Shown here piece by piece: positions 12,978-31,038 of a stretch of 32,378 nucleotides of DNA. The position numbers and the translations under genes were made by a program. The stretch comes from Clostridiales bacterium (GTDB lineage: Bacteria > Bacillota > Clostridia > Lachnospirales > Lachnospiraceae): the NCBI GenBank assembly GCA_012519195.1, contig JAAYQP010000207.1:1-32378 (forward strand), read 5' to 3'. The stretch's first letter is position 1; each line of letters begins with the position of its first letter. The notes beneath the pieces were generated by a model that saw only the letters and a program-made list of their open reading frames with translations, had not been told where the DNA came from and made no database searches.

Positions 12978-14300
12978 ATGCGAATGTATGATTTGATTAA
13001 GAAGAAAAAGCATGGAGAAGAATTAACAAGAGAAGAAATTGCAGGTATGATTAAAGGATATGTGAAAGGAGAGATTCCTGATTATCAGATGTCGGCTATG
13101 TTAATGGCAATCTGCTTTCAGGGAATGACGGAGAAAGAAACAGCGGATTTAACCATTGAAATGGCTCATTCTGGCGATATGGTGGATCTATCTGCGATTG
13201 AGGGTATTAAAGTAGATAAACATAGTACCGGAGGCGTGGGTGATAAGACAACCTTAGTGATTGGACCGATTGTTGCTGCCTGTGGAGTAAAGGTTGCAAA
13301 GATGTCCGGACGAGGTCTAGGACATACCGGTGGAACCATTGATAAATTAGAAGCAATTCCTGGGATGCAGGTGGCCATAGATCAGAAGGAATTCTTTTCT
13401 ATTGTGAATAAGGTTGGGGTTAGTGTTGTAGGGCAGTCTGGTAACCTGGCCCCTGCAGACAAAATGTTATATGCCTTAAGAGATGTGACAGCAACAGTAG
13501 ATAGCATTCCCTTAATTTCGTCTTCCATTATGAGTAAGAAACTGGCGGCCGGTAGCGACTGCATTTTGCTGGATGTTAAGACAGGAAGCGGAGCATTTAT
13601 GAGAACCTTGGATGATTCCATCGCACTGGCAAAACGGATGGTGGCTATTGGGGAGCATGCGGGTAGAAAAACAATAGCAGTGATTACAGATATGGATATC
13701 CCATTAGGAAATGCGATCGGGAATTCCTTAGAAGTAATTGAAGCAATTGATACCTTAAAAGGGAATGGACCTAAGGATTTAACGGTAGTATGTATGATAT
13801 TAGCATCCAATATGCTATATCTTGCCGGTAAAGGAAGTATTGAAGAATGCAATCAACTGGCTAGGGAAGCCGTTAAGAGCGGTGCAGCACTTAAGAAACT
13901 AGCTGAAATGGTGGAGGCCCAGAGAGGAGATGCTTCTGTAATCCTAGATCCTTCCAAATTTGAAAAGGCGCCTTATCAATATGTTGTCAAGGCTCCTAAG
14001 GAAGGGTATATAAGCCACATGGATACGGAGCAGTGTGGCATAGCATCCATGGTACTAGGTGCTGGTAGGGAAATGAAGGATAGTATCATTGATTACACTG
14101 CGGGAATTATTCTGCACAAGAAAACCGGGGAGTATGTTAAGAAAGATGAGGCTCTTGCCACCCTTTATACATCAAAACAAGAGCAATTTGCAAAAGCGGA
14201 AGAAATATTAACCAATGCATATACATTTACAAAAGAAGCAGTAACCAATCGTCCATTGATTTTAGCGAAGGTTACTTCAGAGCAGGTGGAAAGGTATTAA
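12978..14300 (+). CDS. pdp: Pyrimidine-nucleoside phosphorylase
   Basis: This 440-residue enzyme of the thymidine/pyrimidine-nucleoside phosphorylase family cleaves uridine, thymidine or deoxyuridine with phosphate to base and (deoxy)ribose-1-phosphate. The N-terminal helical domain begins MRMYDLIKKKKHGEELTREE. The phosphate/substrate region has KVDKHSTGGVGDKTTL and MSGRGLGHTGGTIDKLEAIP, followed by SSSIMSKKLAAGSD and DVKTGSGAFM. The C-terminal domain ends with the usual ILTNAYTF segment. Length fits Pdp (about 433). ATG 12978 is chosen because TAGGAG (12962-12967) is 10 bases upstream; a TTG at 12969 sits against that box. No other nucleoside genes are adjacent. Confidence 0.95.
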   Translation: MRMYDLIKKKKHGEELTREEIAGMIKGYVKGEIPDYQMSAMLMAICFQGMTEKETADLTIEMAHSGDMVDLSAIEGIKVDKHSTGGVGDKTTLVIGPIVAACGVKVAKMSGRGLGHTGGTIDKLEAIPGMQVAIDQKEFFSIVNKVGVSVVGQSGNLAPADKMLYALRDVTATVDSIPLISSSIMSKKLAAGSDCILLDVKTGSGAFMRTLDDSIALAKRMVAIGEHAGRKTIAVITDMDIPLGNAIGNSLEVIEAIDTLKGNGPKDLTVVCMILASNMLYLAGKGSIEECNQLAREAVKSGAALKKLAEMVEAQRGDASVILDPSKFEKAPYQYVVKAPKEGYISHMDTEQCGIASMVLGAGREMKDSIIDYTAGIILHKKTGEYVKKDEALATLYTSKQEQFAKAEEILTNAYTFTKEAVTNRPLILAKVTSEQVERY

Positions 14301-14325
14301 AAATAAAAAATTTATAAAAAAGTAA

Positions 14326-14354
14326 TTGACAAAGGGTTTATCCTATTGTATACT
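14326..14354 (+). promoter_or_regulatory. Strong sigma-A promoter before the Met/Cys leader peptide
   Basis: The consensus -35 TTGACA (14326-14331), a 17-base spacer and -10 TATACT (14349-14354) form one of the best promoters in the window. It would start transcription near 14361, about 50 bases before the leader ORF. Confidence 0.85.
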
Positions 14355-14409
14355 AACCCCATTAATTCATATCGAGTAAATGGGATATAAAAAAGAAGGA
14401 GGATACTTC

Positions 14410-14550
14410 ATGAGAACATCATTTGCAGTCATGTGTAATACTATGTGTGGCATGTGCATGTGCAGCATGTCTACGAAAGTATGCGCAGAGATAGCGAATG
14501 TAGGTTATCATGAAGCAAAGAGGATAAGGGATCATTCTTCTTTGATATAA
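14410..14550 (+). CDS. Met/Cys-rich leader peptide, candidate attenuator of metNIQ
   Basis: A 46-codon ORF starts MRTSFAVMCNTMCGMCMCSM. Between residues 8 and 20, nine of thirteen are Met or Cys, and a further Cys is at 25; the tail is polar and ends SSLI. A strong AAGGAGG box 7 bases before ATG 14410 and a consensus promoter show it is meant to be translated. It precedes an intrinsic terminator (14596-14628) and then metN-metI-metQ. I infer a leader peptide whose translation senses Met-tRNA and/or Cys-tRNA. The UUCUUCUUUG at its last sense codons (14535-14544) can pair with CAAACAGGAG (14594-14603) in the terminator's 5' arm. It could instead be a small metal-binding or regulatory peptide; there is no signal sequence. 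Confidence 0.7.
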   Translation: MRTSFAVMCNTMCGMCMCSMSTKVCAEIANVGYHEAKRIRDHSSLI

Positions 14551-14595
14551 TATAGCAGGTTGAATCATAGTATGATTTTCTTGTTGTAGATAACA

Positions 14596-14628
14596 AACAG
14601 GAGGCTATCAATGCCATCCTGTTTTTTT
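14596..14628 (+). terminator. Intrinsic terminator between leader peptide and metN (candidate attenuator)
   Basis: AACAGGAGGC (14596-14605) pairs with GCCATCCTGTT (14613-14623), with one bulged A, followed by T through 14628. It begins 45 bases after the leader stop codon. An upstream hairpin, AATCAT/ATGATT (14563-14577), and a small TTGTT/AACAA stem (14581-14596), the latter overlapping the 5' arm, may take part in switching. Confidence 0.75.
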
Positions 14629-14670
14629 ATTCAATAGAAAATTCTGAGGAATTTCCTATTGAATAAAAAA
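14623..14670. repeat. T-first palindromic element, copy B
   Basis: The arms TTTTTTATTCAATAG (14623-14637) and CTATTGAATAAAAAA (14656-14670) are perfect, with an inner AAAATTC/GAATTT match. Read on the minus strand it starts TTTTTTATTCAATAGGAAA, nearly the same as copy A at 10351 (TTTTTTATTGAATAGGAAA). It overlaps the T-run of the preceding terminator. Confidence 0.55.
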
Positions 14671-14814
14671 GCCCTCCGGGAAGGATGCACACTTGTCCTA
14701 ATTACCTTCTTGCCATTTAGCTTGTTATATTATATCGTAGTAGGAAAGTATTGAATGCTTAGTATAAAATATTACTTTAATACTGTACTAAGTGAAATAA
14801 TGGAGGTGGAGGAT

Positions 14815-15834
14815 TTGAAGAACTTAAAGCCCATCATTGAGCTGGTGGGGCTTAGTAAGACATATCAAAGTAAAGATAATACCGTTAAAGCTTTGGAAAA
14901 TATTAATCTTACAATCTATGAAGGTGAGATCTTTGGAATTATTGGTCTTAGTGGTGCGGGAAAAAGTACACTGGTACGATGTATCAATCTTCTAGAGAGA
15001 CCGACGGAGGGAGCGGTATTATTTGATGGAGCAAATTTAGCATCCATGGAAAAAAAGGAGTTACTCAAGGCAAGACAGTCTATGGGTATGATCTTTCAAC
15101 AGTTCAATCTATTGATGCAGAGAACGGCTCTTGATAATATCTGTTTTCCCTTGGAAATTGCAGGGGTATCCAAAAAGGAAGCGAAACAAAGAGCGGAGGA
15201 ACTACTAGAAGTCGTAGGATTAAGCGATAAGGCAAATGCCTATCCTTCCCAGCTATCTGGGGGACAGAAGCAAAGAATTGCAATTGCCCGTGCCTTAGCT
15301 ACAAGACCTAAGGTATTACTTTGCGATGAGGCAACGAGTGCCTTGGATCCTACTACCACAAGATCAATCTTAAGCCTACTAAAAGAGATTAATCAAAAGC
15401 TTGGAATAACGATCGTTGTTATCACTCATGAAATGAAGGTCATTGAAGAAATCTGTAACCGGGTTGCAATTATCGATAAAAGTCAAATTGCTGAAGTGGG
15501 TGAGATGGAAGAGGTCTTTGTAAAACCAAAATCGAAGATAGCCAAGCAACTGATCTTCTCTAAGGATACTCACATTGATTCCTTTGTAGGAGAACATAAA
15601 TGTCGGATCATCTTTGATGGTAGAACTTCCTTTGAACCGGTTATTGCTAATATGGTGCTGGAATGTAAGACACCGGTAAATATACTTTTTGCTGATACTA
15701 AAGACATCGACGGAAAGGCTTTTGGACAGATGGTGATACAGCTACCGGATGATGAACTAAGCCGAAAAAGAATCTATGCTTATCTAAACTCAAATCAGAT
15801 AATCTATGAGGAGGTGAAGGATGATGTGGAATGA
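14815..15834 (+). CDS. metN: Methionine ABC transporter ATP-binding protein
   Basis: This 339-residue ATPase subunit of a D/L-methionine (possibly also cystine) importer has Walker A GLSGAGKST (44-52), the Q-loop in FQQFNLL, signature LSGGQ (147-151), Walker B VLLCDE (167-172) and the H-loop in ITHEM. The C-terminal NIL domain (about 265-339) binds methionine in homologues and mediates feedback inhibition. TTG 14815 is chosen because GGAGG (14802-14806) lies 8 bases upstream and the length then matches MetN; ATG 14800 has no box. The gene overlaps metI by 14 bases. No S-box (SAM riboswitch) is seen upstream; a leader peptide and terminator stand in its place. Confidence 0.93.
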   Translation: MKNLKPIIELVGLSKTYQSKDNTVKALENINLTIYEGEIFGIIGLSGAGKSTLVRCINLLERPTEGAVLFDGANLASMEKKELLKARQSMGMIFQQFNLLMQRTALDNICFPLEIAGVSKKEAKQRAEELLEVVGLSDKANAYPSQLSGGQKQRIAIARALATRPKVLLCDEATSALDPTTTRSILSLLKEINQKLGITIVVITHEMKVIEEICNRVAIIDKSQIAEVGEMEEVFVKPKSKIAKQLIFSKDTHIDSFVGEHKCRIIFDGRTSFEPVIANMVLECKTPVNILFADTKDIDGKAFGQMVIQLPDDELSRKRIYAYLNSNQIIYEEVKDDVE

Positions 15835-16486
15835 AACAGTAATTAAAATGATTGGAATCGGTATTCTAGAGACTTTGTATATGACCTTTTTATCCTCCTT
15901 TATCGCTTATCTAATTGGTTTACCTTTAGGTGTTTTGCTGGTTACAACAGATCAAGATGGGATTGCACCTCGACCATTATTAAACAAGGTCGTTGGGGTT
16001 ATTGTAAACCTAATTCGTTCCGTACCCTTTATCATCCTATTGATCACGGTAATGCCGATTACCAGATTTATTGTAGGAACTACCATTGGATCCAATGCGG
16101 TTGTTGTTCCACTCATTTTGGCATCAGCCCCTTACATTGCAAGGTTAGTGGAATCTTCCTTAAAAGAAGTGGATCAAGGGGTAATAGAAGCGGCCCAGTC
16201 CATGGGGGCAAATACCAAGCAAATCATATTTAAAGTACTGCTACCAGAGGCGAAACCTTCTCTTGTAATAGGAAGTGCAATAGCAATAACAACCATATTA
16301 GGCTACTCTGCCATGTCTGGTTTTGTAGGCGGCGGTGGATTAGGTGATATAGCGATCCGCTATGGATATTACCGAGGCGAAACTCAAATTGCATTGGTAA
16401 CGGTAATACTTATGGTACTGATTGTTCAGGCGATCCAAGAGTTGGGTGATCGATGGATGAGGCGTACCGATAAGAGATTAAATTAG
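15821..16486 (+). CDS. metI: Methionine ABC transporter permease
   Basis: This 221-residue permease has about five membrane segments of the BPD_transp_1 type. The ATPase-contacting EAA loop is near residue 126 (EAAQSMGANTKQIIFKVLLP). NLIRSVPFIILLITVMPITR and SAMSGFVGGGGLGDIAIRYG are typical of MetI. It starts at ATG 15821 (or the adjacent ATG 15824) with GGAGG (15810-15814) inside the end of metN. The 14-base overlap with metN points to translational coupling. Confidence 0.93.
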   Translation: MMWNETVIKMIGIGILETLYMTFLSSFIAYLIGLPLGVLLVTTDQDGIAPRPLLNKVVGVIVNLIRSVPFIILLITVMPITRFIVGTTIGSNAVVVPLILASAPYIARLVESSLKEVDQGVIEAAQSMGANTKQIIFKVLLPEAKPSLVIGSAIAITTILGYSAMSGFVGGGGLGDIAIRYGYYRGETQIALVTVILMVLIVQAIQELGDRWMRRTDKRLN

Positions 16487-16611: not shown

Positions 16612-16654
16612 CCAACAACATTACTTATATAATATGAAAGAGGAGGAATCTATT

Positions 16655-17464
16655 ATGAAGAAAATAGCATCAATTTTATTAGCTGTGGTTCTAGTAGCTG
16701 GAGTTCTAACAGGATGCCAAACAAAGAAGAAATCAGGAGAAATCGTGGTAGGAGCAAGTACAACTCCCCATGCAGAAATCTTAGAGCAAACAAGAGATCT
16801 CTTAAAAGAAGCGGGATATGAGTTAAAGATAGTTGAATATTCCGACTATGTACAGCCGAATATGGCACTGGATAGTGGTGATTTAGATGCGAACTACTTC
16901 CAACACCAGCCTTACCTAGATCAGTTTAATGCTGATAATGGTACCGACATCGTATCTGTAGCAACCATTCATTATGAGCCTTTCGGTATCTATGCTGGTA
17001 AGACAGCTTCCATTGATGCACTGGAAGCAGGAGCTCAGATCGCAGTACCGAACGATACAACAAACGAAGCGAGAGCATTGATGCTTTTGGAGGCCCAGGG
17101 CTTAATCACATTGGCTGAGGGAGCAGGTCTAAATGCAACCATTAATGATATCGTAGATAACCCAAAGAACCTTGAAATTGTAGAAATTGAAGCTGCTCAG
17201 CTTTCCCGTTCACTTCAGGATGTGGATATGGCAGTTATCAATGGAAACTATGCAATACAAGACGGTTTAAATGTAGCTAAGGATGCTTTGGCAGTTGAGG
17301 ATAAAGATTCCGTTGGTGCAGAAACCTTTGGTAATGTTCTTGCAGTAAAAGCCGGAGATGAAGATAGAGAGGATATTAAAGCGCTAATTGATGCATTAAA
17401 GAGCGATAAAGTAAAACAATATATTAATGATACTTATGAGGGAGCAGTAGTACCTCAGTTCTAA
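16655..17464 (+). CDS. metQ: Methionine-binding lipoprotein MetQ (NlpA family)
   Basis: This 269-residue substrate-binding lipoprotein is the extracellular receptor for MetNI. The signal peptide MKKIASILLAVVLVAGVLTG ends in lipobox LTGC with Cys21 as the lipid anchor. The mature protein begins with a polar KKKSGEIVVGAS and follows the NlpA pattern: TTPHAEILEQ, DYVQPNMALDSGDLDANYFQ, HQPYLDQFN, AVPNDTTNEARALMLLEAQG and a C-terminal AVVPQF. ATG 16655 has AGGAGG (16641-16646) 8 bases upstream; the in-frame ATG 16634 lies ahead of that box. A strong terminator follows, so metNIQ ends here. Confidence 0.95.
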   Translation: MKKIASILLAVVLVAGVLTGCQTKKKSGEIVVGASTTPHAEILEQTRDLLKEAGYELKIVEYSDYVQPNMALDSGDLDANYFQHQPYLDQFNADNGTDIVSVATIHYEPFGIYAGKTASIDALEAGAQIAVPNDTTNEARALMLLEAQGLITLAEGAGLNATINDIVDNPKNLEIVEIEAAQLSRSLQDVDMAVINGNYAIQDGLNVAKDALAVEDKDSVGAETFGNVLAVKAGDEDREDIKALIDALKSDKVKQYINDTYEGAVVPQF

Positions 17465-27417: not shown

Positions 27418-27447
27418 TAAGCAGTAATAATTACATAGTATAATTAA

Positions 27448-27536
27448 AATGCTAGGGGAGCCCAGGCTGAGAGGTATGTTAAGCACATACTGACCCTCAC
27501 TACTTGATCCGGATAATACCGGCGGAAGGAAGCAAT
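27448..27536 (+). promoter_or_regulatory. TPP riboswitch aptamer (THI element)
   Basis: The conserved THI landmarks are in order: AGGGGAGCCC (27454-27463), GGCTGAGAGG (27465-27474), an extra hairpin arm GTATG/CATAC, GACCCT (27492-27497), and ACTTGATCCGGATAATACCG continuing into GGCGGAAGGAAGC. P1 is TGCT/AGCA, P2 AGGG/CCCT, P3 GCC/GGC and P5 CCGG/CCGG. It should bind thiamine pyrophosphate and repress thiT. Confidence 0.95.
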
Positions 27537-27543
27537 CAAGTGG

Positions 27544-27574
27544 CCCCTCCTATGCGATTAAAGGAGGTTTTTTT
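27544..27574 (+). terminator. TPP riboswitch expression platform; terminator stem contains the thiT ribosome binding site
   Basis: CCTCCT (27546-27551) pairs with AGGAGG (27562-27567), followed directly by seven T and then ATG 27575. The same AGGAGG is the Shine-Dalgarno box of thiT. CCCCT (27544-27548) can alternatively pair with AGGGG (27454-27458) of aptamer P2, which gives an antiterminator/anti-sequestor when TPP is absent. Confidence 0.65.
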
Positions 27575-28255
27575 ATGTTTCAAAAAGTTTTTGATTTCTT
27601 TGTCTATACGGATACGTCCTATGAACCGTATAGCTATTACCCCACAATGGCTGGTAATATTGCGATACTAGTTGTGATTGTTCTATTGCTGATCCTTATG
27701 TTGGCATTTGGGGGAACTGGTAAGAAAATGCAGGCGAAACAACTGGCCTTTTCTGCATTGGCAATGACTTTAGCCGTTGTGACATCTCTTTATACCGTAG
27801 TTGAGTTTCCTTTTGGCGGCTCCATTACCTTATTCCGTATGTTCTTTATCTGTCTCATTGGTTACCTATATGGTACGAAAGCTGGAATTATTACCGGTAT
27901 AGCCTATGGATTATTAGATTTTATCCTAGGACCATATGTTATTCATCCGTTACAGATGTTATTAGACTATCCTGTAGCTTTTGGATTGTTGGGGTTATCC
28001 GGTGTATTTATCAACGCAAAGTTTGGCATTATTAAAGGGTATATACTAGGTGTATTAGGAAGATATCTCTGCCATGTTATTACCGGCTTTATCTTTTTCT
28101 CTGAATATGCTGGTGACCAGCATCCAGTCATATACTCTATGATTTATAATGCTTCCTATATTGTTCCGGAAGCGATTGCTACGATCCTAATTCTATCAAT
28201 ACCAGCAGTAAGAAAGGGTCTGATGGAAGTAAAAAGGATGGCAATGGAAGGCTAA
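27575..28255 (+). CDS. thiT: Energy-coupled thiamine transporter ThiT (ECF S component)
   Basis: This 226-residue integral membrane S-component binds thiamine and docks on the shared ECF ATPase/transmembrane module. The thiamine-specific pattern includes VEFPFGGSITLFRMFFICLI, YGTKAGIITGIAYGLLDFIL and HPLQMLLDYPVAFGLLGLSG. It ends with CHVITGFIFFSEYA. The homologues I know are about 180-200 residues; here an N-terminal stretch of about 40 residues adds an extra membrane segment (about 26-45) before the usual core. The upstream TPP riboswitch confirms the thiamine role independently. No ECF module genes are in the window. Confidence 0.95.
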   Translation: MFQKVFDFFVYTDTSYEPYSYYPTMAGNIAILVVIVLLLILMLAFGGTGKKMQAKQLAFSALAMTLAVVTSLYTVVEFPFGGSITLFRMFFICLIGYLYGTKAGIITGIAYGLLDFILGPYVIHPLQMLLDYPVAFGLLGLSGVFINAKFGIIKGYILGVLGRYLCHVITGFIFFSEYAGDQHPVIYSMIYNASYIVPEAIATILILSIPAVRKGLMEVKRMAMEG

Positions 28256-28318: not shown

Positions 28319-29617
28319 TTATAGTTCTGCCATTCTAGTTACTGCAACATAGATACCAGATATTCGATACCAAGTAGGTAAGTCAACAATACCAGTTGCA
28401 GGCATATTAAATGTTTGCTGAAAGGTTCGTACTGCCTCAGCTGTTCTTTCGTCGTATTGACCATTTACTGCCACCTTTGGTATGGCAATATAGGTATCTG
28501 CAATCCGATTTAGTTGTTCCTGTATCATTCTGACATTACCACCGGAGGCTCCAATGTTGAGGTTCTGTCCCGGCCAAGATGCCGGAACTCCTGCTACTTG
28601 TGGAGCGGTATTAATAAACATATCATTACCATAAAAATGGCGAATAATTTCAATGGCGGAATAACCTTGGTCACCTAGATCTTTTGAGCCCCATTGGGTC
28701 ATCCAATTCGGACATTGTACTTGATAACCATCACAATATTGGGTTAGGATAGGTTGCTTAACATTCGGCCTTGATAAATAATTAACAAATAATTGGTCCA
28801 CAGCAAGACCGATATTACTATAGATATTCCTTCCAGGGATCCATTTGTGGTCGAAGGCAGTAGAGGAGGTGACAGTAAAGTTGTAGCCCTGGTTTCGATA
28901 CCATTCTGTAAATACTCGGTTTAAGGTGAAGGAAAGAATTGCCAATATATTTGCTTGAATGGTAGCTTCCGGCCAGGTTGCATAAATTTCACTGGATGCA
29001 ACATTCTTAATATAGTCGCGAAATCGAACATAGTGATTGGTTGCTGAGGTATCTGTTGGTGGCCCGTCATGTACAACGACAAATTCTGGGATTACAACAT
29101 TTTGCAGAACAATTTCGCCACTTTCCGCTGTATCTTTTATTTCTGCTTCTGCGATCTTAGGAGGATAATCACCGAATAGAGTATGGGGAGGGATTACATA
29201 GAGGGATTTATCCTCTTCCGTTCCCATTTCTCTTAAGGTGGACTCCTGAAGTGCTGTGACTTCTGGAAGGACTTCCGCTCCCTGAACGGTTAGAGGTGCA
29301 AACCCCTCAGCATTAACCTGTATGGTATAGGTTGCGTAGGGCTGCTCTTGGGAAGGTGCAAGACTATAATCAATTGGTGGAGCTTCCAGTTCGATTTCTT
29401 CCGTTAAGCCAGAAGCATCTGTAGTGAGCTGCTCAAGTGTAGAATTTGGTACACCGGTATAGGAGATTGCAACGGTAGCATTTTCAATTGGTGCTAAATT
29501 TTCTGTGGTGCATCGTACCTGAAGGCGGCCAAAGTTTTGTGTATCCATCTGGGCAGGATAGATTCTATACGGATTGACCACCTTTTGCTTTGGTACATAG
29601 GATTTAAACAGATACAT
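28319..29617 (-). CDS. SleC-type spore cortex-lytic enzyme, paralogue 1
   Basis: This 432-residue protein lacks a classical signal peptide. Residues about 30-125 form an Ig-like/carboxypeptidase-regulatory domain (IENATVAISYTGVPN, TTDASGLTEEIEL). A SpoIID-like hydrolase region follows at about 175-340, with VASSEIYATWPEATIQANIL (candidate catalytic E210), LTQYCDGYQVQCPNWMTQWG and GYSAIEIIRHFYG. A PG_binding_1 domain (about 355-420) is at the end. The order and length match my memory of Clostridium SleC, which is made as a zymogen, activated by Csp proteases and degrades cortex during germination. It sits 64 bases downstream of a close paralogue, probably in one transcript. No csp gene is in the window. 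Confidence 0.7.
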   Translation of the reverse strand: MYLFKSYVPKQKVVNPYRIYPAQMDTQNFGRLQVRCTTENLAPIENATVAISYTGVPNSTLEQLTTDASGLTEEIELEAPPIDYSLAPSQEQPYATYTIQVNAEGFAPLTVQGAEVLPEVTALQESTLREMGTEEDKSLYVIPPHTLFGDYPPKIAEAEIKDTAESGEIVLQNVVIPEFVVVHDGPPTDTSATNHYVRFRDYIKNVASSEIYATWPEATIQANILAILSFTLNRVFTEWYRNQGYNFTVTSSTAFDHKWIPGRNIYSNIGLAVDQLFVNYLSRPNVKQPILTQYCDGYQVQCPNWMTQWGSKDLGDQGYSAIEIIRHFYGNDMFINTAPQVAGVPASWPGQNLNIGASGGNVRMIQEQLNRIADTYIAIPKVAVNGQYDERTAEAVRTFQQTFNMPATGIVDLPTWYRISGIYVAVTRMAEL

Positions 29618-29681: not shown

Positions 29682-30974
29682 TTATTCTGCCATTCTGGTT
29701 ACAGCAACATAAATGAAAGATATCTTATACCAGGTAGGCATGTCGACAATTCCATTAGCGGGTAAACCAAAGATGCTTTGAAAGGTTCTGACCGCTTCCG
29801 CTGTCCTTGGACCGTAGATCCCATCTACCGCAATTCTTGGAATTGCAGGGTATGCCGTTGAGATTGCATTTAATTGCTCCTGAATGATTCGGACATTTTG
29901 GCCGCTTGAACCAATCGTTAGGTTAGAACCGGGCCAGGAGGAAGGAACACCGGATACCTCTACTGCAGTATTGATGTAGATGGAGTTTCCGTAAAAATTG
30001 CGAAGGATTTCGATGGCGCTATACCCTTCATCTCCTAAGAATTTGGAACCCCATTGAGTCATCCATCCGGGGCATTGAACGCGGTTACCATCACAGTATT
30101 GTGTTAGGATTGGCTGGCGAACATTCGGCCGGGACAAATAATTTACAAATACAGAATCTACAAGGACACTAATATTATCATAGATATTTCTTCCAGGAAT
30201 CCATTTATGGTCGTAAGCGGTAGAAGAAGTGATGGTAAAATTATATCCTTGGCTACGGTACCATTCTGTAAATACACGATTTAAGGTAAAGGATAGGATA
30301 GCAAGGATATTAGCATAAATGGTTGCTTCTGGCCAAGTAGCATAGATTTCACTACTGGCGACGTTTTTTATATAATCTCGAAAGCGAACATAATGATTTT
30401 GTGCAGCAGGATCGTCAGGAGGTCCATCATGAACGATAACAAATTCGGGGATAACAACCTGTTGTAGGACAATTTCTCCGGTTTCTATTGTGGCCTTAAT
30501 CTCATCCTCAGGTATTTTGGGTGGATATTCAGCAAAGAGGGTATGGGGAGGTATAACATATAAGGCACCCTGCTCCGGTTCCGGTTCTAAGATTAAGGTA
30601 GAAGCTTGCTCTGTTGTAACATTAGGGAATACTTCGGTGCCATTAACCGTAACGGGACGAAAGGCCGGTGCTGTAATATCGACATTGTAATTGGCGTAGG
30701 GCTGTACGGTTGTTGGTTCCATACTATAATCAATGGAAGGGGCAGGTAAAGAGATTACTTCCGTAAGACCAGAATCATCTGTTACCAGCTGTTCAAGGAT
30801 ATTTTCTGGATTGTCTGGAGAGGTAATCGTAACCGTTGCACCAGCAATTGGAGTCAAGTTTTGAGTTGTAGCACGTACCCGAAGGTTTCCTAAAGATTGG
30901 GTTCCCATTTGGGCCGGGTAGATTCGGAAGTTATTGGCGGTTTTCCTGATCTCAGAGGAGAATATAGGCTTCAT
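29682..30974 (-). CDS. SleC-type spore cortex-lytic enzyme, paralogue 2
   Basis: This 430-residue protein has the same domain order as its downstream neighbour: an Ig-like pro-region (GNLRVRATTQNLTPIAGATV), a SpoIID-like segment (KNVASSEIYATWPEATIYAN, YCDGNRVQCPGWMTQWGSK, GYSAIEILRNFYG) and a C-terminal PG_binding_1 domain. The central region is nearly identical to paralogue 1, while the N-terminal and PG-binding regions differ more. ATG 30974 is preferred because GAAAGGA lies about 11 bases upstream and the length then matches its partner; a GTG at 31001 would add nine residues and overlap that box. It is likely expressed late in sporulation. A hairpin (31039-31060) lies in the upstream leader. 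Confidence 0.7.
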   Translation of the reverse strand: MKPIFSSEIRKTANNFRIYPAQMGTQSLGNLRVRATTQNLTPIAGATVTITSPDNPENILEQLVTDDSGLTEVISLPAPSIDYSMEPTTVQPYANYNVDITAPAFRPVTVNGTEVFPNVTTEQASTLILEPEPEQGALYVIPPHTLFAEYPPKIPEDEIKATIETGEIVLQQVVIPEFVIVHDGPPDDPAAQNHYVRFRDYIKNVASSEIYATWPEATIYANILAILSFTLNRVFTEWYRSQGYNFTITSSTAYDHKWIPGRNIYDNISVLVDSVFVNYLSRPNVRQPILTQYCDGNRVQCPGWMTQWGSKFLGDEGYSAIEILRNFYGNSIYINTAVEVSGVPSSWPGSNLTIGSSGQNVRIIQEQLNAISTAYPAIPRIAVDGIYGPRTAEAVRTFQSIFGLPANGIVDMPTWYKISFIYVAVTRMAE

Positions 30975-31038
30975 TTTAATTTCAATCCTTTCTATAAGCA
31001 CAGAAAAGCAGTTCGGACCCTGCTTATTTGCTCCTGTT

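Follow-up and report, generated by a model that had tools for sequence, protein, structure and literature searches.

The stretch of DNA studied here, referred to as the window, comprises 32,378 nucleotides (nt) of a Clostridiales bacterium of the family Lachnospiraceae (assembly GCA_012519195.1, contig JAAYQP010000207.1) and carries metN, metI and metQ, the genes of a predicted methionine (Met) importer. These genes are preceded by a short open reading frame (ORF) rich in Met and cysteine (Cys) codons and by an intrinsic terminator. Judging from sequence comparisons and folding models, it is highly probable that this leader is a transcription attenuator through which a ribosome reading Met codons controls metNIQ. 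A preliminary description, made from the letters of the window, had suggested ribosome-read attenuation of the operon, and the leader, the terminator and the predicted competing helices described below support that suggestion.

As seen in the window, the promoter, the ribosome binding site, the 46-codon ORF with nine Met or Cys among residues 8 to 20, the terminator and the metN-metI-metQ genes all lie, on the plus strand, where the preliminary description had placed them. Sequence comparison establishes the anatomy of the leader, its position, its conservation and the overlap of the competing structures that it is predicted to form. The leader promoter (14326-14354) is of the sigma-70 type and matches the consensus at 11 of 12 positions, with TTGACA at 14326-14331 and TATACT at 14349-14354 separated by a spacer of 17 nt. 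It is followed by a Shine-Dalgarno sequence, AGGAGGA (14397-14403), both being read directly from the DNA, and by the leader ORF (14410-14550), which translates to MRTSFAVMCNTMCGMCMCSMSTKVCAEIANVGYHEAKRIRDHSSLI and is supported by homologues and by an excess of in-frame ATG. Residues 8 to 20 of this peptide hold five Met and four Cys, and the Met cluster spans 14431-14469. The Shine-Dalgarno sequence and the Met cluster thus mark a short, putatively translated ORF with control codons. The start codon and the nucleotides that follow it, AUGAGAACAUCA (14410-14421), constitute segment A, a putative anti-antiterminator that pairs with segment C across 26 sequences. Segment C (14490-14513) is the predicted 5' strand of the antiterminator and includes an outer arm, GATAGC (14490-14495), a TGT (14499-14501) and an inner arm, GTTATC (14504-14509). 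Inside the antiterminator lies hairpin P2 (14516-14544), whose 3' arm is UUCUUCUUUG, followed by hairpin P3 (14551-14588), a long insert seen in folds of the window and missing from 21 of the 26 aligned members of the genus. The 3' strand of the antiterminator (14589-14609) consists of the inner arm GATAAC (14589-14594), ACA (14597-14599) and the outer arm GCTATC (14604-14609). It overlaps the 5' arm (14595-14605) of the intrinsic terminator (14595-14628), which has its 3' arm at 14613-14624 and its U-tract at 14622-14628; both strands of the antiterminator and the terminator are supported by folds and by an arm-swap test. The terminator stem begins 44 nt past the leader stop codon; it is visible in the folds and was not reported by a simple consensus terminator scan of the plus strand. 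Folding of the leader yields an energy of -87.5 kcal/mol, with a z score of -6.5 relative to 200 shuffled sequences, and both this folding and the in-frame ATG excess of the genus leaders exceed chance. Right after the attenuator U-tract lies an A+T-rich inverted repeat with almost perfect arms, TTCAATAG...CTATTGAA (14620-14673), ending in an A run; on the minus strand it would read as a hairpin followed by T, beside a terminator-like site at 14684-14672 (minus).

Downstream of the leader, metN (14815-15834, with a TTG start) encodes a methionine-type ATP-binding cassette (ABC) transporter ATPase with a NIL domain, metI (15821-16486) a methionine-type ABC permease and metQ (16634-17464) a lipoprotein of the NlpA/MetQ family. 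Pfam and NCBIfam concur on the families of these genes. Since metN (356 of 499.7 bits against TIGR02314) and metQ (218 of 374 bits against PRK11063) score under the curated NCBIfam cut-offs, the label "methionine" rests on family kinship. In agreement with the preliminary description, which saw neither S-box nor Met T-box control, Rfam covariance models of the T-box (RF00230) and of the S-adenosylmethionine (SAM) riboswitch or S-box (RF00162) gave no match at gathering score in the leader, and a permissive Rfam scan of 14300-14830 returned sub-threshold matches only. The three Rfam matches at gathering score in the window all lie outside the leader region. Elsewhere in the 3.0 Mb genome of the window, the single SAM riboswitch above the cut-off is located ahead of metK, and two further matches (44.2 bits, slightly under the cut-off) lie close to contig ends; all of them are on contigs other than that of the leader. 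The preliminary description had also considered that metN might be transcribed only from a promoter beyond the terminator. This was rejected because the gap between U-tract and metN is just 25 nt in L014 and 27 nt in L041, which lack the space for a downstream promoter. The window itself has a promoter-like site (9 of 12 positions, 14710-14738) between the terminator and metN, and a second promoter 3' of the terminator may exist there.

The leader is a regular feature of metN in the genus of the window (the Herbinix/Mobilitalea group). MetN was found at E <= 1e-90 in 28 of 34 genus genomes, in one of which it starts at a contig edge, and the leader stands ahead of metN in all 27 genomes that have both metN and upstream DNA. 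Of these leaders, 24 were flagged by at least five Met per 16 residues; L086 and L089 fall under this threshold but belong to the genomes of L008 and L026, and the leader of L085 was recognised by reading. The contig of L091 starts within the leader. When the 34 genomes were searched with a covariance model built on the leader core, 27 had exactly one strong match, always at metN (26 of the 27 positives had been training sequences), and all other matches had E values of 0.024 or worse. Named carriers include three Herbinix sp. metagenome-assembled genomes and Mobilitalea sibirica DSM 26468 (L072); further carriers have titles no closer than Lachnospiraceae, Clostridiales or Bacillota, and it is from such titles that the family name of the relatives derives. 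The small ORF which the preliminary description proposed to look for ahead of metN in relatives thus accompanies metN in each of the 27 genus genomes with upstream DNA and, as described below, in 16 of 79 further loci of the family.

When the leader protein by itself was searched against 99 relatives, three matches other than the window fell below 1e-3, and DNA patterns and metN-anchored searches were therefore adopted. A strict DNA pattern recovered the leader in 18 of the 34 genus genomes; in 397 family genomes, it found one match in the same genus and one site without metN. A match in G410 (L055) was dropped because the ATPase encoded there is just a 25% match to MetN. Applied to a collection of named genomes, the pattern returned 23 stretches. 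Sixteen are metN leaders that the set contained before; at the other seven (L056, L059, L062, L064, L068, L071 and L078) no metN was seen, and they were taken as chance matches. The leader search of a viral collection gave no match. One carrier, L069 (SHOH01000183.1), is titled Anaerolineaceae and has the leader of genus genome G014; probably the record is mistitled or its bin is a mixture. In G003, a short tandem repeat of the AATCAGTCTGGAATA type (L085, approximately 830-1080) is located immediately 5' of the metN leader.

In an alignment of 26 genus leaders, cut at the terminator, variation is lowest in the Shine-Dalgarno sequence, the start region AUGARAACAUC (segment A), the Met codons, GAAUGUGRUGUUUUC (segment C, the complement of segment A) and the terminator, whose stem and T-run are present in all 26 members as aligned to that cut. 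A promoter matching at least 10 of 12 positions lies upstream of 25 of the 26 leaders; on the reverse strand, such a site is present in 4 of 26. Excluding the start codon, ATG occurs 159 times in frame and 22 and 10 times in the other two frames. Genus leaders contain 6 to 9 Met and 1 to 7 Cys (median 4 Cys), and their peptides vary from 19 to 46 residues, the C-terminal half not being conserved. The reading frame of segment C also varies among members, and in some of them the segment contains the stop codon. Segment C is thus conserved as RNA, and the Met codons are conserved in frame.

To describe the competing helices, minimum-energy folds from segment C to the 5' arm of the terminator were obtained for 20 sequences, and the helices were then counted in all 26. 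All 26 folds contain the outer helix, GAUAR:YUAUC, with five or more pairs; UGU:ACA is present in 25 of them, an inner helix with four or more pairs likewise in 25, and a hairpin like P2 (five or more pairs) lies within the antiterminator in 25 of 26. In the window, the antiterminator would consist of GAUAGC:GCUAUC (14490-14495/14604-14609), UGU:ACA (14499-14501/14597-14599) and GUUAUC:GAUAAC (14504-14509/14589-14594), with arm energies of -7.8 kcal/mol for the outer helix and -8.4 kcal/mol for the inner helix together with UGU:ACA. Because its 3' strand overlaps the 5' arm of the terminator, the two structures are predicted to compete. Swapping arms between genus members weakened each pairing: cognate and swapped energies were -5.34 and -3.73 kcal/mol for the outer arms (p = 5e-5), -8.33 and -7.17 for the inner arms (p = 1e-4), -18.22 and -16.76 for A:C over 30 nt (p = 5e-5), and -15.05 and -13.93 for the terminator arms (p = 5e-5). 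Outer pair 3 is U-A in 19, C-G in 4 and U-G in 3 of the 26 members, and outer pair 5 is G-C in 18, G-U in 4 and A-U in 4; these arms were located by a sequence pattern, which fixes pairs 1 and 2 by construction and constrains the rest. A:C is paired in 94.2% of 311 cells across the 26 sequences, compared with 32 to 61% when the strands are slid. An antiterminator overlapping the terminator thus has the support of compensatory changes, limited by the relatedness of the sequences and by the pattern-located arms.

From these features we infer translation of the leader, stalling within it, the direction of the response and a second ribosome at the start codon. The attenuator would sense the supply of charged methionyl-tRNA. 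With ample Met, the ribosome would pass through the leader ORF, and either segment A, with its start codon, would pair with segment C or the ribosome would cover C; the antiterminator would then be blocked and RNA polymerase would halt near 14628. When Met-tRNA is scarce, ribosomes would stall at the Met codons and a trailing ribosome would sit on the start region, so that A would be blocked and C would be free to pair with the emerging 5' arm of the terminator, allowing metNIQ to be transcribed. The preliminary description had assigned the return to termination to a ribosome that reaches the stop codon and covers the pairing strand. This can hold for leaders whose stop codon lies 6 nt into the antiterminator strand; it does not fit the window, where 58 nt separate the first base of that strand from the stop codon, and here the re-forming of the start-codon (A:C) helix is the likelier return to termination.

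The effect of ribosome position was modeled on partial transcripts ending just past the 5' arm of the terminator, scoring in how many of the 26 genus leaders the probability of the antiterminator, P(antiterminator), exceeded 0.5. This was the case in 1 of 26 ribosome-free transcripts. A single ribosome placed on the most favourable Met codon raised the number to 18 of 26, and Met-codon ribosomes combined with a second ribosome at the start raised it to 23 of 26, whereas a ribosome at the stop codon left it at 1 of 26. For the window, P(antiterminator) was 0.01 without a ribosome and 0.00 with a ribosome at the stop codon; with one ribosome at Met8, Met12, Met15, Met17 and Met20 it was 1.00, 1.00, 0.96, 0.07 and 0.17, respectively, and the addition of the second ribosome raised it to 1.00 at each of these positions. 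With a ribosome at the stop codon, 25 of 26 genus members are predicted to terminate (24 of 26 with two other footprints).

Beyond the genus, MetN was found at E <= 1e-100 in 80 of 200 genomes of the family, including the window, and the upstream DNA of the other 79 was examined. An ORF with at least six Met per 16 residues is present on the metN strand in 16 of the 79 and on the opposite strand in none; at lower thresholds, the sense and antisense counts were 17 and 2 (at least five Met) and 30 and 5 (at least four). The peptides, such as MNQQTTMQMNMCMMNDMCMMMCRMLMC, are unlike the window leader in sequence and alike in plan, and other genera retain the Met-rich ORF though the flanking RNA sequences differ. 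For structural work, 21 loci were picked by eye from the 30 with at least four Met (L136, L146, L150, L162, L168, L177, L184, L189 and L191 were left out). All 21 have a terminator 3' of the stop codon, and in 19 a strand near the stop is predicted to pair with the 5' arm and loop of the terminator at -10 kcal/mol or lower; relative to the stop, this strand lies between -39 and +13, except in L193 (-80) and L121 (+58). With uniform segment limits, cognate antiterminator/terminator pairs averaged -16.2 kcal/mol and swapped pairs -13.3 (p = 5e-5, 21 loci). ATG counts per frame in this set, itself selected for Met, were 163, 14 and 4, and the median was 3 Cys per leader. A profile of 14 peptides searched against 299 family genomes gave 19 matches, 17 of them under 1e-3 and all of these at metN (12 profile members and 5 new ones); at the two weaker matches no metN was seen. 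The profile failed on G005, a genus member with the leader, and its misses therefore do not mean absence.

Rfam scans of the 79 family regions found two T-boxes (L119 and L137) and no SAM riboswitch. In the search at the order level, 40 upstream regions were examined out of 61 MetN matches, 38 of them from other families, and no leader with at least six Met was found in these 38. The sole sense-strand match among the 40, L219, belongs to the same family as the window, and the antisense control gave 2 of 40. Rfam was run on 20 of the 40 regions, 18 from other families, of which 7 have a T-box (L217, L225, L227, L229 and L230) or a SAM riboswitch (L218 and L220) on the metN strand. Relatives thus use differing sensors at one operon. 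At L215, which encodes a close MetN, the scan showed no leader, and none was seen in the part that was read (560 of 931 nt).

Several results weigh against a Met-reading attenuator. At full length and equilibrium, the median P(terminator) of the 26 leaders was 1.00 in every ribosome state (the window being an exception with P(antiterminator) of 0.87 when a ribosome is at Met8), so that antitermination would have to be kinetic, depending on the order of synthesis. A single ribosome, averaged over the Met positions, brought P(antiterminator) above 0.5 in just 4 of 26 partial transcripts. With a ribosome held at the stop codon, P(terminator) of the window dropped to 0.01, because hairpin P2 cannot form. 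The short version of the A:C arm-swap test gave p = 0.057, the column covariation of A:C was not above that of shuffles, double-sided changes were seen in no A:C pair, and neither the arm-swap permutation tests nor the pair statistics remove the relatedness of the sequences. In the family, just 10 of the 21 antiterminators individually beat dinucleotide shuffles (p < 0.05), and 61 of the 79 metN regions have neither a leader with at least six Met nor a T-box or SAM riboswitch, which indicates that other controls of metN exist in the family.

Other explanations of the leader have to be weighed as well. The preliminary description took Met and Cys together as the signal, and a leader in which stalling at either codon reports the total supply of sulfur amino acids would agree with the four Cys of the window cluster and with the medians of four in the genus and three in the family set. 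Nevertheless, Cys is replaceable, as L013 and L130 combine a single Cys with 9 Met and L175 a single Cys with 8 Met, while Met holds at 6 to 9 in the genus and the genes regulated belong to Met importer families. Met is therefore the constant residue of these leaders and Cys is not; the first half of the proposed signal is retained, and we regard dual sensing as unlikely. The folding model requires no more than that ribosomes occupy the start and the Met region, whatever the cause of the pause, and could also describe a response to any slowdown of translation by a drug or general starvation, as in erm-type leaders. Met is, however, abundant in leaders of several genera despite different flanking residues, and all strong matches stand at metN, which makes a response without Met specificity very unlikely.

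The strong structure of the leader and the conservation of segments A and C as RNA might also suggest a riboswitch that binds a ligand, with the small ORF being incidental. This we consider slightly less probable still, given the 159:22:10 distribution of ATG among frames, the kept Shine-Dalgarno sequence and frame, the lack of an Rfam riboswitch at gathering score in 14300-14830, and the Met-rich ORF kept by other genera amid differing flanking RNA. The richness in Met and Cys could suit a peptide acting in trans, such as a small metal- or thiol-binding protein, but its C-terminal half is unconserved, genus members differ in peptide length (19 to 46 residues) and in the frame in which segment C is read, and the leader peptide has no Pfam match and one NCBIfam match, far under the cut-off; this explanation is more improbable again. 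Least probable of all is the switch drawn in the preliminary description, between UUCUUCUUUG (14535-14544) and CAAACAGGAG (14594-14603). The pairing exists as written, with -3.5 kcal/mol, but its 5' strand already serves hairpin P2 as 3' arm (-8.1 kcal/mol for this hairpin), a hairpin recurs there in 25 of 26 members, and the pairing is weaker than both arms of the window antiterminator; a better strand lies upstream, at 14490-14509.

Leader-peptide attenuation has long been known, classically from attenuators of the trp, his, leu and ilv type, and in the literature examined a Met leader in front of metNIQ appears once, as a proposal for Streptomyces lividans. Firmicutes are better known for T-boxes than for ribosome-read attenuation, although the branched-chain operon of Listeria reportedly has a leader-peptide attenuator. 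The SAM riboswitch (RF00162) is likewise an attenuator of Firmicute Met genes; it senses SAM and is absent from the window leader. Among the matches listed in the open-access literature, we found no Met leader-peptide attenuator in Firmicutes. As outlined in passages of PMC2965389, classical attenuators have control codons for the amino acid of their operon and a terminator that competes with an antiterminator, as proposed here; they differ from the window leader in that its amino acid is Met and that the first strand holds the leader start codon in the genus. Leader-peptide attenuators for histidine at hisS and hisZ of Firmicutes are mentioned in the same source (PMC2965389) and a leucine-rich attenuator peptide of Staphylococcus aureus in an excerpt of PMC5794164; these and the branched-chain case share the ribosome-read principle with the window leader and concern other amino acids and operons. 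In Lactococcus lactis, according to part of PMC7058034, a Met T-box of the met operon responds to the build-up of uncharged tRNA-Met by raising a high-affinity Met transporter, the RNA binding the tRNA directly, whereas the window leader has no T-box match. The closest parallel is the metL leader peptide proposed ahead of metNIQ in S. lividans TK24, likewise a small Met-containing ORF and a proposed attenuator; in the portion of PMC8079986 on metL, it is described from one genome as leaderless, with three Met and three Cys in 29 residues, its termination unclear and no typical Rho-independent structure given. The leader of the window occurs in many genomes with a terminator and a predicted antiterminator, and the two were compared by description. 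For the Met operons of Actinobacteria, a 2005 survey reports that no RNA structure is conserved (PMC1262725).

Two further observations concern the remainder of the window. A thiamine pyrophosphate (TPP) riboswitch (68.3 bits, 27444-27547) precedes a membrane protein ORF (27575-28255), which we take to resemble a thiamine uptake component. Two adjacent long ORFs on the minus strand (28319-29617 and 29682-31001) have translations that are closely alike by eye, apparently a tandem duplication; their C-terminal parts resemble peptidoglycan-binding repeats.

Methionine control in Firmicutes is usually framed as SAM riboswitch versus T-box, and a ribosome-read solution would be a third. We tentatively propose, as a possibility that falls somewhat short of an even chance, that a sizeable minority of Lachnospiraceae, as judged by record titles, uses a Met-codon attenuator at metNIQ where relatives have a T-box or a SAM riboswitch, and that in Herbinix/Mobilitalea the start codon is itself a switch strand. 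Its use by some members of a major gut-associated family would fill out this picture and allow three sensors to be compared at one operon. Because Met also starts proteins, a Met-sensing leader begins with the residue that it measures, and Met is thus a special case for leader-peptide attenuation. With the start codon as a switch strand, the device would read both initiation, by the ribosome on the AUG, and elongation at the Met codons; if true, two uses of one amino acid would both be read, and the conserved start-codon pairing makes this idea testable.

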